A program made the translations under genes and the position numbers. The notes beneath the pieces are model-generated. The model saw only the letters and a list, made by a program, of their open reading frames with translations. It was not told the DNA's origin and made no database searches. This document shows positions 1 to 5,194 of a DNA stretch of 5,194 nucleotides, piece by piece; the stretch's first letter is position 1, and each line of letters opens with the position of its first letter. Source of the DNA: a bacterium (GTDB lineage: Bacteria; UBP6; JAFGXH01); the NCBI GenBank assembly GCA_027064085.1, contig JAMOQH010000191.1:1-5194 (forward strand), written 5' to 3'.

Positions 1-1
1 A

Positions 2-3000
2 ACTCAAAAAGAGATTAAATGCCTTGAATATGAAACTATTAAAGAGATAAATACAACTCTAAAAACTTGTGAAACAACAGCAAAAGAAAGCAAACATTCA
101 GTAAATGCAAATATTACAGAAAAAGATATATATCAAACAGACCCTAATTGTATTAGAATGAATAATATAGTTGATGCAAGACCAGATGAAGAGATAAATT
201 TATTAGTTACACAGCCAGGAAATGTAAAAACACTAATAACATATAATTATATAGATAATTACAGCACTAATACAACAGATAGTAATATTTCAAATATCTA
301 TTTTTCGGACAATTCTAACATTGTAGATAAATATATAAATTTAGGAATAAAAACAGTAGAAAATACAAGAGAAATAAAAACTTCTTTAAAAAAAGAGCCA
401 GATTTATTATCTGAAAAATGGTTTGTTAATAGAATAGATTTATTTTCAGGAGATGAAGAAAGCGATTCTTTAAATCCAAATGTATTAGCAGAAATAAAAA
501 GAAAAGATAATAAAAATGTAAAACAATGTTCAAATCCAAATGATATTTTAATGAGTAATGATAATTGTTATTTATCAAAAGATGATACTTATAAGGTTTT
601 TAATGCAAAAATTTATAATAAAAGCGATTACTCTTTTATTACAACTCTTTTAGATAAAAATCATATAAAAAATGTTTGTTATGATGAAAATGATAGCGAT
701 ACTCAATATATTGAAAATGAAAAATTATGTATGGGTAGTTATTTATGTTCAGGAGAAAAATGTCCAAATAATGCTGTTGTAGATGGAACTTGTCCTTATC
801 CAGATTTAACTCCATTTAATGCACAAACAGGAATGTGTGAATCTACTTCATCTGCTATTGTATTTAATAAATGGAAAAGTTATGGAGATGGGAATTGGAC
901 TTTAAGTGATGATGGTAGTTATGTTTTTCAAAATATAAATGGAAAGAAAACTGCTTTTGTTAGTGATTTTTTAATAAAAGGAAAATTTACTATTTCTGGG
1001 ACTATGAATGTTAATAAAGATAGTTGGGATGATAACGACTTTATTGGATTAGTATTTAATTTTAAAGATATGAATAACTATTATGTAGTAGATTGGGATA
1101 GAAGTAGTGATGATTGGCATAACTATACAGGTTGGAGGCTAATTAAAGTTAAAAATGGTAAAAAAACTTTATTAAAACAAACTGATAGTGATGGTTGGCA
1201 ATTTGAAACTGATTATAATGTTAAGGTAATAGTTGATGAAGAAAAAACAAGAGTATTTATCGATGATTTAGAAGTTTTAACTTATAAAGGAGATTTAACA
1301 TCTTCAACAGGTGGGAAAGTAGGGTTTTATAATTATTCTCAAGGTAAAGTGGCATATAGTAACTTTACACTAAAAACTTTACCTATTTGTGAAGATGGAT
1401 ATAATTTAGCACCAAATGGACAATGTGTAATGGGGGATTTAAGTTGTGTAAGTAAAAATTATACTTTTAATGTTTTAACTCAAAGATGTGAAGCTAATAT
1501 TACAAAATGTCCTGATGGATATGCAATAGATGAAAAAGGATTTTGTAAAAATAGTTCAAACAACAAAGTTGATATTAAAAAAGGAGAATATTTATTTATA
1601 ACAAAAGATAAAGTAGATAGTGATACTATTACAAAATATTCTTTAACAGAGATAAGTGATGATAAAAAACAAGAATATCTAATCAATTATCCTTTTGATT
1701 ATTTAGAAGATGAAAATGTTACATTAAGTAACATTGATAGTTATAATTTATATTTAAGTGATAAATTAGTAGCTCCTGATGAATTTGCTGTTTATGAGAA
1801 TAAAGGGGATTATCTACTAATTAAAAGTAAAAATTTAGTTTTAAGTAATGAATGTAAAGATTATGCAAAAGATTTAGATGACTCAAATTGGACTATATCA
1901 GATACCGATGGATGTGTAATTAAATATGGAGAAGATAAAAAATTAGAAGCAGTTGCTCCAACTAATATGGTTATTTCTACATTAGATGGAGATTTTATTC
2001 CTATAAAAACAAATGGATATAATAAAATATTCGCAATTCAAAATTATTTAGAAAATGATAAGATGAATTGGTTTTCTACATATACTATGCCTCCAATAAA
2101 GGGTAGTGAAGTAATAGATAATGATACAAAAGAAAAAATTATTCCTATGAGTGAATATCCTTATGTTTTTGATAATTTAACATATAAAGCAACTATTACA
2201 CAAAAAACAATTAGAACAAAAGTTTCTCCACCAAAAATACCAGAATATAGATATGAAAATTCTATATGGGTTAATATTTTAAGTGGAAGTTTAAATGATG
2301 GTAGTTATTATAATAATAACTTTATTGAAAACATTTACCAACAAACAACAGGAGCAATAAATTTATTAGCAAGTAGTTTTGATATTCCTCCTATTATTTT
2401 ATCTTCTTTTATTGTAAAAGGGGCTTTAGGAGCAACATTAGAGCCTATGGCTTATGTAATAAATATTTTTAGAAAAAGTGCGAAATTTGCTGATTATAAA
2501 ATTGAATGGGAAGTATATAAAGATGGAAATAGTAAATATTATACAAATAAAGATTTATCTCCAAAAAGAGAAGCTATTCATAATGAAAATGAATATCTAA
2601 CTAAAATCCTTTATGAAAAACAAAAATATGAATCTGGATTAGTAAAAAGTAAAGATATAAATAAAAAAATTGCTGAATATTACAACTATAAAAACTTCTC
2701 TTTAAATTTACTTGGAGTTGATAATGATTTAATAAAATCTTTTAAAGATTCTTATGAAGAAAAAATTTCAATCGGATTTAAAAAATGTAAATGGTGGAAA
2801 AGTTGTCATAACAAAACAAAAACTTCAACTCATACAGTAAAAAAAGTATTTAAGAAAAAAGTTACAACAGCTTGGAGTAATAGTGTGAATAATTTAACAA
2901 TTTATGTGCCTTATTTAGGAGATTATACAGTAGAAGCTTATGATAAGTATAATAATCTTTTAGCAAGAAAAACTATTTATGCTAAAAACTTCGATAATTC

Positions 3001-3376
3001 AAGCACTCATTATGCTTATCAAAGAGTAAATTTAGCATCAGCTGATAATTTTAATATTGATTATTCTATAAAAGATGGAAACACTACAAATGCTTGTAGA
3101 TATTCTACAGAAGTTGAGTGGGGTGGTGGAGTTAGTGGAATAAATTATGAAATATCAGACCCTATGGGATTTAAGTGTGATAAAAGTAATGATTCTTATG
3201 TAAAACTTCACTCAGCAACACTAATAAAAATAAAACCTGCTAATTTCACTCATTGGTTTGAGATACATTTAATTAAGCCAATGCCATATGCAAATAGAAT
3301 TATAGTAATTACAGGTGGAGAATTAGAAAATAGGGAGTATAAATGTTATCAAGAAAACAACTGCACGGTTCAATAA
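2..3376 (+). CDS. Large Cys-rich exported protein with a thrombospondin-C-like domain, probable conjugation surface protein (5' end outside window)
   Basis: The frame is open from base 2, so this is a 3' fragment of at least 1124 residues (numbered here from base 2). The ATG at 158 (residue 53) is internal: it has no Shine-Dalgarno sequence and open codons precede it. I see 25 cysteines. Paired-Cys modules lie at about 176-189, 243-279 and 463-515, for example C463-C475 (CEDGYNLAPNGQC) and C503-C515 (CPDGYAIDEKGFC). Between them, residues 288-457 resemble the thrombospondin C-terminal domain: an acidic DDNDFIGLVF segment, then NNYYVVDW, then a closing GKVGFYNYSQGKVAYSN strand pair. Residues 784-822 are hydrophobic. 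Residues 927-953 are basic with a CKWWKSC loop. The end looks beta-rich with four more cysteines. Overlap with the following TraN-like gene suggests a role at the donor surface in mating-pair contact. This is inference; it could be a general adhesin. The signal peptide, if present, lies outside the window. Confidence 0.6.
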   Translation, partial: TQKEIKCLEYETIKEINTTLKTCETTAKESKHSVNANITEKDIYQTDPNCIRMNNIVDARPDEEINLLVTQPGNVKTLITYNYIDNYSTNTTDSNISNIYFSDNSNIVDKYINLGIKTVENTREIKTSLKKEPDLLSEKWFVNRIDLFSGDEESDSLNPNVLAEIKRKDNKNVKQCSNPNDILMSNDNCYLSKDDTYKVFNAKIYNKSDYSFITTLLDKNHIKNVCYDENDSDTQYIENEKLCMGSYLCSGEKCPNNAVVDGTCPYPDLTPFNAQTGMCESTSSAIVFNKWKSYGDGNWTLSDDGSYVFQNINGKKTAFVSDFLIKGKFTISGTMNVNKDSWDDNDFIGLVFNFKDMNNYYVVDWDRSSDDWHNYTGWRLIKVKNGKKTLLKQTDSDGWQFETDYNVKVIVDEEKTRVFIDDLEVLTYKGDLTSSTGGKVGFYNYSQGKVAYSNFTLKTLPICEDGYNLAPNGQCVMGDLSCVSKNYTFNVLTQRCEANITKCPDGYAIDEKGFCKNSSNNKVDIKKGEYLFITKDKVDSDTITKYSLTEISDDKKQEYLINYPFDYLEDENVTLSNIDSYNLYLSDKLVAPDEFAVYENKGDYLLIKSKNLVLSNECKDYAKDLDDSNWTISDTDGCVIKYGEDKKLEAVAPTNMVISTLDGDFIPIKTNGYNKIFAIQNYLENDKMNWFSTYTMPPIKGSEVIDNDTKEKIIPMSEYPYVFDNLTYKATITQKTIRTKVSPPKIPEYRYENSIWVNILSGSLNDGSYYNNNFIENIYQQTTGAINLLASSFDIPPIILSSFIVKGALGATLEPMAYVINIFRKSAKFADYKIEWEVYKDGNSKYYTNKDLSPKREAIHNENEYLTKILYEKQKYESGLVKSKDINKKIAEYYNYKNFSLNLLGVDNDLIKSFKDSYEEKISIGFKKCKWWKSCHNKTKTSTHTVKKVFKKKVTTAWSNSVNNLTIYVPYLGDYTVEAYDKYNNLLARKTIYAKNFDNSSTHYAYQRVNLASADNFNIDYSIKDGNTTNACRYSTEVEWGGGVSGINYEISDPMGFKCDKSNDSYVKLHSATLIKIKPANFTHWFEIHLIKPMPYANRIIVITGGELENREYKCYQENNCTVQ
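3332..3337 (+). promoter_or_regulatory. Ribosome binding site of the TraN-like gene
   Basis: AGGGAG lies five bases before the ATG at 3343, inside the end of the upstream gene. It fixes the start of the TraN-like gene: the peptide from this ATG begins directly with a signal sequence. Ribosomes finishing the upstream gene at 3376 would already be past this site, so translational coupling is likely. Confidence 0.75.
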
Positions 3377-4917
3377 TTTTTTTGTTAGTTTTTGGAATAA
3401 GTTTATTCGCACAAGAAAAGTGTGTATTAAAAGAAGTTCAGAATTTAGACCCAATAGGAGATGTAGGTGGTAAGTTAATTTTTACTAAAAATCGTTTTGT
3501 TTATGAGTGTAATGAAACAAAAGAAAGAAAAGGTAGATGTTTAAAAGAAGAAGTAAAAATTAAAGAACTATCAGCTCAAATAGAACAAAATATTACACTC
3601 TCAACAATAGATGAAACTTTTAGTGGAAGTTTAGGCGAATTAACTTCTATGTTTGGAGCTGCTAATCAAATTAAATTTTTATTTAGTGGTTGGAAAGGGT
3701 ATTGCGAAGAGGGAATGAAAATGGATTTTTCCTGGTTACAAGACCCTTATATGTGGGCAAATTTTGCTATGACTGCTGCTTTAGGAAGTGGTGATAATGC
3801 AGGAACATTAGGTAAAGATTTAAGTGAACAAGCCTTAAAATATGCAAGATGTGCAGCAGTTGCTGGAATAAATACAGCAAGAACTATTGACCAATATGTA
3901 AATGGAATGGGTTATAGTTGCGACCCTGTTGATGAATTTTGTGATGGGGAAGAAAGCTCTTCTGCTGATACACAAACATTTACTTTAACAAAAAATCAAT
4001 ATAAAGATATGCTAAATCAATATACGGATATTGCTCAATATTTAGAAGTTATTAAAGAAGATGATGGAGTTGTTTTAGTTAGAATAAAACCTATAAATCC
4101 AGATATTGATTCAAGTTCTAATTATGACAAAGCAAAAGATGCCATTGATAGAATGAAAAAACTTCAATTAATAATAAATAGTGTTATGACTACAGCAGCA
4201 ATAGCTACTTGTTTAGCAACTGATGGAAAAAGCACAGGAACAAGTGCGACAGATGCACAAGCTACAAGTTTAGCTAATATAGCAAGTATGACTATTGGGT
4301 ATTTACCAACAGACCCATTCACAAAAATAGGTTTACAATTAGGTTTAAATTTTGCTACATCTTTTGAGAGAGTAAAAAGTTGTAAGAGTTATACTAATGC
4401 TAAAAAACAAGGAGAAAGACATCAAAAAACATATGAATCAAAATCGAATGGAATGTGTCATTTTATAAATAAAGAGTGTGTAGATGGAAAAGGTTATCTA
4501 TCAAGTATGTATCAACTAACAGGAGCTGGTGTATTAACAGGAAATGGTATGTCTTTAAATACAGGTTGTGCTTTATATGCTCGAAACTATTGTTGTTATG
4601 ATAGCCCTTTATCAAAGATTTTGACAGAACAGATAAAAGCTCAATTAGCAAGAGATTGGACTCATTGCACAGACATATCTTTAAAAGAGTTACAAAATGT
4701 AAATTTAAGACAATGCACAAAATCAGAAATGGCTTCAGCTCCTGATGGTGTTAAAATGCCTTATGATGCTTCGCCAGAAGAAAGAATAAAAGCCTTTCAA
4801 TATAAATATAAATGTGTAGATTTAAGGGAATATAAAGATTTAATATCTAAACAAGTTGGAAAGAATATTCCGATGGATGAGTTTAACGATGCTTTGAAAG
4901 GGATTGGGGAAGAATAA
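3343..4917 (+). CDS. traN: TraN-like mating-pair stabilisation protein, F-type conjugation
   Basis: The 524-residue product is probably an outer-membrane or periplasmic protein that stabilises donor-recipient contact in conjugation. Residues 1-23 form a signal peptide: MLSRKQ, then a hydrophobic core, then LFA before a likely cleavage at Q24. The mature part has 17 cysteines, as expected for a disulphide-rich TraN. Residues about 345-460 match the TraN C-terminal pattern I know from F-like systems: GMCHF with a second Cys at 379, C409, then NYCCYDSPLSKILTEQ (417-418 CC), AQLARDW, and a Cys followed by a 'sxkELQNvN' segment at 442-455. Family members describe this last part as C-x-G-[FL]-T-x-[ED]-x-L-x-x-L. 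The N-terminal half is not recognisable; residues 134-148 and 276-290 are Ala-rich and hydrophobic. The gene overlaps the preceding one by 34 bases in another frame. The length is slightly below that of F TraN (about 600). The symbol rests on the C-terminal block only. Confidence 0.75.
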   Translation: MLSRKQLHGSIIFLLVFGISLFAQEKCVLKEVQNLDPIGDVGGKLIFTKNRFVYECNETKERKGRCLKEEVKIKELSAQIEQNITLSTIDETFSGSLGELTSMFGAANQIKFLFSGWKGYCEEGMKMDFSWLQDPYMWANFAMTAALGSGDNAGTLGKDLSEQALKYARCAAVAGINTARTIDQYVNGMGYSCDPVDEFCDGEESSSADTQTFTLTKNQYKDMLNQYTDIAQYLEVIKEDDGVVLVRIKPINPDIDSSSNYDKAKDAIDRMKKLQLIINSVMTTAAIATCLATDGKSTGTSATDAQATSLANIASMTIGYLPTDPFTKIGLQLGLNFATSFERVKSCKSYTNAKKQGERHQKTYESKSNGMCHFINKECVDGKGYLSSMYQLTGAGVLTGNGMSLNTGCALYARNYCCYDSPLSKILTEQIKAQLARDWTHCTDISLKELQNVNLRQCTKSEMASAPDGVKMPYDASPEERIKAFQYKYKCVDLREYKDLISKQVGKNIPMDEFNDALKGIGEE

Positions 4918-4981: not shown

Positions 4982-4995
4982 CGTATATGATTATA
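4976..4995. repeat. Inverted repeat over the -10 box, candidate operator
   Basis: TATAATC (4976-4982) and GATTATA (4989-4995) are perfect 7-base inverted arms with a 6-base spacer. The left arm contains the whole -10 hexamer and the right arm covers the expected transcription start. The octamer TATATGAT also occurs twice in direct orientation (4969-4976 and 4984-4991). A repressor bound here would block the promoter. In such AT-rich DNA a 7-base AT-rich dyad can arise by chance, so this is a candidate only. Confidence 0.35.
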
Positions 4996-5006
4996 AACAT
5001 TTACAA

Positions 5007-5011
5007 AAGGA
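5007..5011 (+). promoter_or_regulatory. Ribosome binding site of the ATPase gene
   Basis: AAGGA ends five bases before the ATG at 5017 and supports that start codon. Confidence 0.7.
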
Positions 5012-5016
5012 AAAAT

Positions 5017-5194
5017 ATGTTTGAAACTATAAAAAAATACCAAAAAAGACTTCTTAAAAATTTTAATATAACTTATAAAAGATATTTGTTTAATGAGATT
5101 GATTTTGATGATAAAATGATTGCTATTTTTGGAGCAAGAGGTGTAGGAAAAACTACTATGCTTTTTCAACGACTAATTGAGCTTCAAGAACAAA
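5017..5194 (+). CDS. ATP-binding protein, probable AAA_14/DUF4143 type (3' end outside window)
   Basis: Only the first 59 residues are visible; the frame is open to the window edge. Residues 39-47 (GARGVGKTT) form a textbook Walker A P-loop after the beta strand MIAIF (34-38). The lead-in KRYLFNEIDFDD followed by the P-loop and a MLFQRLIE helix resembles the AAA_14 ATPases that usually carry a C-terminal DUF4143 domain. That domain cannot be checked here. The cellular role of this family is poorly defined. The N-terminus is short and Lys-rich with no signal peptide, so the protein is cytoplasmic. It has its own promoter and ribosome binding site, and starts 99 bases after the TraN-like gene. 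It may be a cargo or accessory gene rather than part of the transfer apparatus. Other P-loop ATPases cannot be excluded from this short piece. Confidence 0.7.
   Translation, partial: MFETIKKYQKRLLKNFNITYKRYLFNEIDFDDKMIAIFGARGVGKTTMLFQRLIELQEQ

Follow-up and report, generated by a model that had tools for sequence, protein, structure and literature searches.

In F-type conjugation the tip of TraN binds outer-membrane proteins of the recipient, and swapping the tip changes specificity (PMC9246713, PMC13104618). The tips determine to which bacteria a plasmid is transferred; the receptors identified in these two studies are all outer-membrane proteins. A plan of a base plus a variable tip is common to the short, medium, long and V-shaped forms of TraN (F, RA1, R27, A. 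baumannii); in the medium and long forms the tip is a beta-sandwich, and a form with two tips exists (PMC9246713, PMC13104618). For the R27-type TraN the tip was placed at residues 305-457 (PMC13104618). Sugars are known as ligands from another type of pilus, in that the PilV adhesins of IncI2 plasmids bind core sugars of LPS (PMC10654706). The 2026 survey of TraN mentions neither lectins nor thrombospondin, and a literature search, mostly without subscription journals, found no paper joining TraN to thrombospondin.

The window analysed here is an entire contig of 5194 bases and holds, according to the list of open reading frames, two genes (B and C, overlapping by 34 bases at 3343-3376; Table 1) and, incomplete at its end, an ATPase-like frame. 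The product of gene B is a large, Cys-rich protein of the exported type. We propose that genes B and C together encode a TraN-like protein in two pieces. It would belong to an F-type (MPF_F) system carried by a mobile replicon, the host of which is probably campylobacterotal. Gene B, as the N-terminal piece, would display binding modules, probably on the surface of the donor cell, and gene C would be the TraN base. The thrombospondin C-terminal domain (TSP_C) of gene B would be a self-contained, Cys-free, lectin-like beta-sandwich, placed in the variable middle between Cys modules of the disulphide type, and exchangeable as a whole. Taken as a whole, this proposal seems to us moderately probable.

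Table 1. Features of the window, with positions in nucleotides
Feature	Position	Strand	Remarks
Gene B	2..3376	+	open reading frame; 1124 aa visible; 5' end missing, as the contig begins inside the gene
Gene B, variable middle	344..1897	+	residues 115-632; holds TSP_C and the flanking Cys pairs
TSP_C / CBM66-type lectin-like beta-sandwich (predicted)	about 848..1378	+	residues 283-459; up to 848-1396, residues 283-465; from Pfam, profile and model
Gene B, conserved C-terminal part	1898..3373	+	residues 633-1124; from L074 and pAMYT alignments
Gene C	3343..4917	+	524 aa; candidate TraN C-terminal base; CCYDSPLSKI-type motif

In the preliminary description a TSP_C domain had been recognised by eye at residues 288-457; the domain is real, but its best boundaries are slightly wider (Table 1). 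The landmarks used are in place in the frame that starts at base 2 (DDNDFIGLVF at residues 343-352, nt 1028-1057; NNYYVVDW at 358-365, nt 1073-1096; GKVGFYNYSQ at 438-447, nt 1313-1342), the cysteines C264, C279, C463 and C475 are all real, and the domain, which is Cys-free between C279 and C463, does sit between Cys-rich stretches. The family assignment also held when the Pfam model PF05735 (TSP_C; curated cut-off 25.6 bits) was applied, with a match above cut-off to the excised domain in two stretches (E 1.5e-15, 58 bits) and to the whole gene B protein (47.8 bits). A genome-wide scan placed the matches at 887-1123 and 1133-1375 and found no second copy in the genome of the window. In a phmmer comparison with the PDB, COMP, TSP-1 and TSP-2 were found at 2e-5 to 4e-4, and a PF05735-type profile of eight relatives reached the same three proteins over nearly the full domain (1e-17 to 2e-14, COMP being best at 1.3e-17) and the CBM66 modules of levanase at 5e-4. 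Across 13 proteins (TraN, plasmid adhesins and phage-type proteins) 19 positions of the domain are invariant, including W17, Q28, N31, D62, D64, W83, N162, S164 and Q165 (domain numbering); the set also covers the GF.N.SQ motif, and D62 and D64 are acidic loop residues. Chance similarity to TSP_C is ruled out by the PF05735 score together with the structure match.

An AlphaFold2 model made from nine natural sequences (pLDDT 89.8, pTM 0.87) was used, a two-sequence model (pLDDT 58) having been set aside; it is all-beta and predicts the beta-sandwich that the assignment calls for. In the structure comparison the thrombospondins scored Z 22.3, 21.3, 21.1 and 20.2, for instance TSP-2 (2rhp; Z 22.3, 2.2 Å, 176 residues) and COMP (3fby; Z 21.1). 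The CBM66 modules scored Z 20.0-20.8, and the predicted fold is of the CBM66 type (4azz; Z 20.8, 2.3 Å, 161 residues) and an L-type-lectin-like beta-sandwich; the next group, at Z 16-17, comprises the galactocerebrosidase lectin domain and L-type lectins. With the C-terminal domains of COMP (3fby), TSP-1 (1ux6) and TSP-2 (2rhp/1yo8) the module has the family (PF05735) and the fold (Z 20-22) in common at 23-25% identity, but it differs from the animal proteins in a shortened inter-strand loop (183 residues versus about 220). EGF-like and type 3 calcium-binding repeats were not recognised by Pfam in gene B, TSP_C being its sole Pfam family over the cut-off. The CBM66 of the Bacillus subtilis levanase (4azz, 4b1m) shares the fold (Z 20-21 over 158-161 residues) at 16% identity and is itself attached to an enzyme. 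Since the fold is equally close to CBM66 and to the animal thrombospondins, nothing in it points specifically to a role of the thrombospondin type, and calcium binding by the TSP_C of gene B is putative.

In animal thrombospondins the C-terminal domain lies packed within a unit rich in calcium, which is established knowledge and is in line with the title of the 1ux6 entry, and the TSP_C of gene B might likewise be a structural spacer or folding scaffold that lends length and calcium-dependent stiffness and takes no part in recipient binding. A Cys-free, globular domain between Cys modules, which some relatives manage without, would suit such a role. A spacer, however, need not keep the residues listed above invariant (these may be core residues), and the recurrence of the domain in other surface-contact proteins also argues against it, so that we consider a purely structural role unlikely.

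The gene that carries TSP_C had been described as conjugation-linked and compared with TraN. Its link to an F-type system is supported through homologues in L074, L079 and pAMYT, which are found near TraU and/or TrbC, but similarity to TraN can be detected only in the downstream gene that overlaps it (3343-4917). Gene C matched the NCBIfam TraN models at E 2e-6 to 3e-5, below their curated cut-offs, and PF06986 at E 9.6e-4, likewise below (19.3 bits versus a cut-off of 23); gene C of L079 reached 23.0 bits with PF06986, at the cut-off. In a single comparison by hhalign, a four-member profile of gene C matched six proteobacterial TraN proteins with a probability of 95.3 (E 6.5e-9). Gene C also carries the motif of the CC[FY] type known from the TraN base, NYCCYDSPLSKILTEQIKAQL, or CCYDSPLSKILTEQIKAQL in another writing. 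These profile and motif matches make gene C a homologue of the C-terminal base of TraN. Gene B had no match to PF06986 in the Pfam scan and no detectable homology to proteobacterial TraN in the profile comparison; a role of gene B in mating rests, therefore, on the fusion found in pAMYT and on gene order.

In L074, from a Campylobacterales genome, B and C are separate genes as in the window, and the pair follows a TrbC_Ftype gene (E 1.2e-10), a TraU-like gene (E 1.7e-4, below cut-off) and a gene for a further Cys-containing protein. In L079, where B and C are again two chains, genes of this B-C kind follow TraU (E 1.6e-40). In pAMYT of Malaciobacter mytili (NZ_CP031220), on the other hand, B and C are fused into one protein of 1576 aa (WP_114843297), which belongs to a cluster starting with TraU. 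This protein is homologous at the N-terminus, in the C-terminal part of gene B and in gene C, its residues 4-1524 being tiled in order by the N-terminus of gene B as found on contig L025, by its C-terminal part (residues 958-1120 against 592-755, E 1.5e-14) and by both ends of gene C. Because a relative has B and C in a single chain, gene B counts as the N-terminal partner, and the two proteins of the window may well act jointly; family names and the mating role are carried over by homology.

The comparison with L074 also located the variable part. Gene C aligned over its full length (31%, E 1e-92), and gene B aligned at residues 6-114 (37%, E 3.6e-17) and 633-1123 (30% over 542 columns, E 5e-58), whereas for residues 115-632, between these two stretches, nothing in the L074 protein aligned significantly. 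This middle measures 518 aa in the window versus 350 aa in L074, and the difference of 168 aa would be about the size of the TSP_C domain. No match to TSP_C was found in the proteins of L074 and pAMYT, that is, the flanks are conserved in relatives from which the domain is absent, as was to be expected of a swapped domain. Among 398 Campylobacterales genomes searched, two had TSP_C, namely the one to which L025 belongs and one with an adhesin-like protein (L036).

Another finding was a second copy of the module in the neighbourhood of gene B. L025 is a contig of a Campylobacterales metagenome bin, and its positions 1860-3338 represent the N-terminus of gene B that is missing from the window; its last 130 bases (3209-3338) match window 1-130 at 99.2%, with one mismatch. 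The ends of the two contigs meet exactly, as if both assemblies broke at one place. Just upstream of the start of gene B, L025 has a Cys-rich gene (gene A) with the same TSP_C module. From the abutting ends, both module copies are likely to lie on one replicon; the contigs were assigned to different genome bins. Window 856-1367 and L025 663-1171 are 81% identical in DNA and 68% in protein, and the 30-90 bases flanking the copies are 28-33% identical, which is the random level. The dN of the pair (0.22) is lower than the dS (0.41), and the copies have thus diverged with more constraint on the protein than on silent sites. Judged from sequence, this TraN-like mating protein carries TSP_C as an exchangeable module, one that would have been acquired, lost and copied from gene to gene in one piece. 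A C-type-lectin-like domain on L025 1860-3338 (residues about 85-230 of gene B; 23.6 bits versus a Pfam cut-off of 22.6) is weak in L074 (12563-13015) and absent from the pAMYT protein, and would be a second module that comes and goes.

TSP_C was also found in TraN proteins proper. A plasmid search with the domain alone gave nine places on Vibrio plasmids (V. parahaemolyticus, V. vulnificus, V. alginolyticus, V. cholerae and V. fluvialis), eight of them annotated as TraN and one as hypothetical. These TraN proteins have PF06986 (6e-18) and TSP_C (3e-12) in a single chain, and the TSP_C-bearing genes adjoin TrbC and TraU. The TraN of IncC-like large Vibrio plasmids (pVb1182-tet, WP_305803735; pNDM-116-14, WP_154715325) resembles the proteins of the window in its F-type cluster (TrbC, TraU, TraN), its richness in Cys and a TSP_C of about 175-190 aa between Cys-rich stretches. 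It differs in being one protein (1434-1445 aa) that scores on PF06986, in a TSP_C that is just 30% identical, and in keeping a separate tip homologous to that of IncHI TrhN. In the alignment with IncHI TrhN, residues 311-688 and 899-1431 of the Vibrio protein align, and residues 689-898 (210 residues, with TSP_C) face only 15 residues of TrhN (485-499). As this gap lies just after the published tip (305-457), the Vibrio TSP_C would be an extra module behind a homologous tip; by this alignment it is an addition beside the tip and no replacement, an arrangement much like that of A. baumannii TraN with its two tips. Homology of TSP_C to the IncHI/Vibrio TraN tip was not detected (hhalign probability 0.2), and a single origin of the TSP_C of Vibrio TraN and that of the window was neither shown nor rejected by the tree (p-AU 0.26). 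In two Vibrio plasmids (L004 10403-11953, L042 8415-9953) traN is followed by a gene for a Fic-family protein, which the others examined lack.

Domains related to this TSP_C are found in tail proteins of phages and in adhesins as well; no relatives of gene B were found in viral contigs. One viral contig (L052) encodes at 1361-3745 a phage tail protein (phrog_469, E 2.6e-104) with an inserted TSP_C, and the module thus recurs in a second machine for recognising partners. The presence of the domain in proteins unlinked to conjugation counts against a role in mating, and gene B could instead be a general adhesin whose TSP_C binds something other than a recipient, such as a polysaccharide of the matrix, the surface of a eukaryotic host or an adjacent tra protein. 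In line with this, the closest folds include CBM66 (fructan-binding) and eukaryotic L-type lectins, and the domain is found in Ig/cadherin-type adhesins of Vibrio plasmids and in the adhesin-like protein of L036. Yet a single protein of pAMYT corresponds to B and C, the pair follows TrbC/TraU in L074, and gene C is TraN-like, all of which points to mating, and we regard a general adhesin as improbable.

The lectin-like fold of the module, the C-type-lectin-like stretch and the occurrence of TSP_C in phage tails and adhesins together suggest binding to the surface of a partner. Within the proposed two-piece TraN-like protein, TSP_C most likely helps the donor to hold the recipient by such surface binding, with an LPS- or capsule-type glycan as a likelier ligand than a porin; binding of the recipient surface, probably of a glycan, is the role that we infer as best fitting the domain. 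A more general and more tentative suggestion, possible but held with less confidence than the proposal itself, is that some F-type systems choose their recipients by glycan, through TraN-like proteins carrying lectin folds, and not by porin binding alone, with cassettes of the TSP_C/CBM66 type and the C-type-lectin-like type being exchanged among neighbouring conjugation genes, adhesins of plasmids and tail proteins of phages. If so, a lectin-type module in TraN would widen the receptor range to surface sugars, as with PilV in the other pilus type (PMC10654706). The presence of TSP_C in TraN of several lineages of Vibrio resistance plasmids, including pNDM-116-14, makes the question of the ligand testable in culturable bacteria.

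With regard to the host, no tra genes besides B and C are present on the contig, and no homologue of gene B was found in the two other genomes of the family/order of the window (the order of the bin is represented by three genomes in the search set). The close relatives of genes B and C all come from Campylobacterota, and the contig may thus belong to an organism other than that of its bin; it may have been wrongly binned, or be a lone trace of a plasmid. That the gene is a stranded remnant outside any working conjugation system might be read from the shortness of the contig and from a bin in which TraU, TraH and TraC were not found, but both frames are intact across 4.9 kb (ORF list), the module pair has dN below dS, and a plasmid is often largely absent from metagenome bins, which leaves this explanation very improbable.

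No relatives of gene C were found on typed plasmids. In PLSDB, pAMYT is typed as non-mobilizable despite its TraU and TraN-like protein. It seems that plasmid typing overlooks divergent F-type systems of Campylobacterota, and the lectin-type module of TraN could serve as a marker for those that are missed. At the far end of the window (4987-5193) the start of a frame with the Walker A motif GARGVGKTT is truncated by the end of the contig; its best weak match is AAA_14 (E 5e-5, below cut-off).
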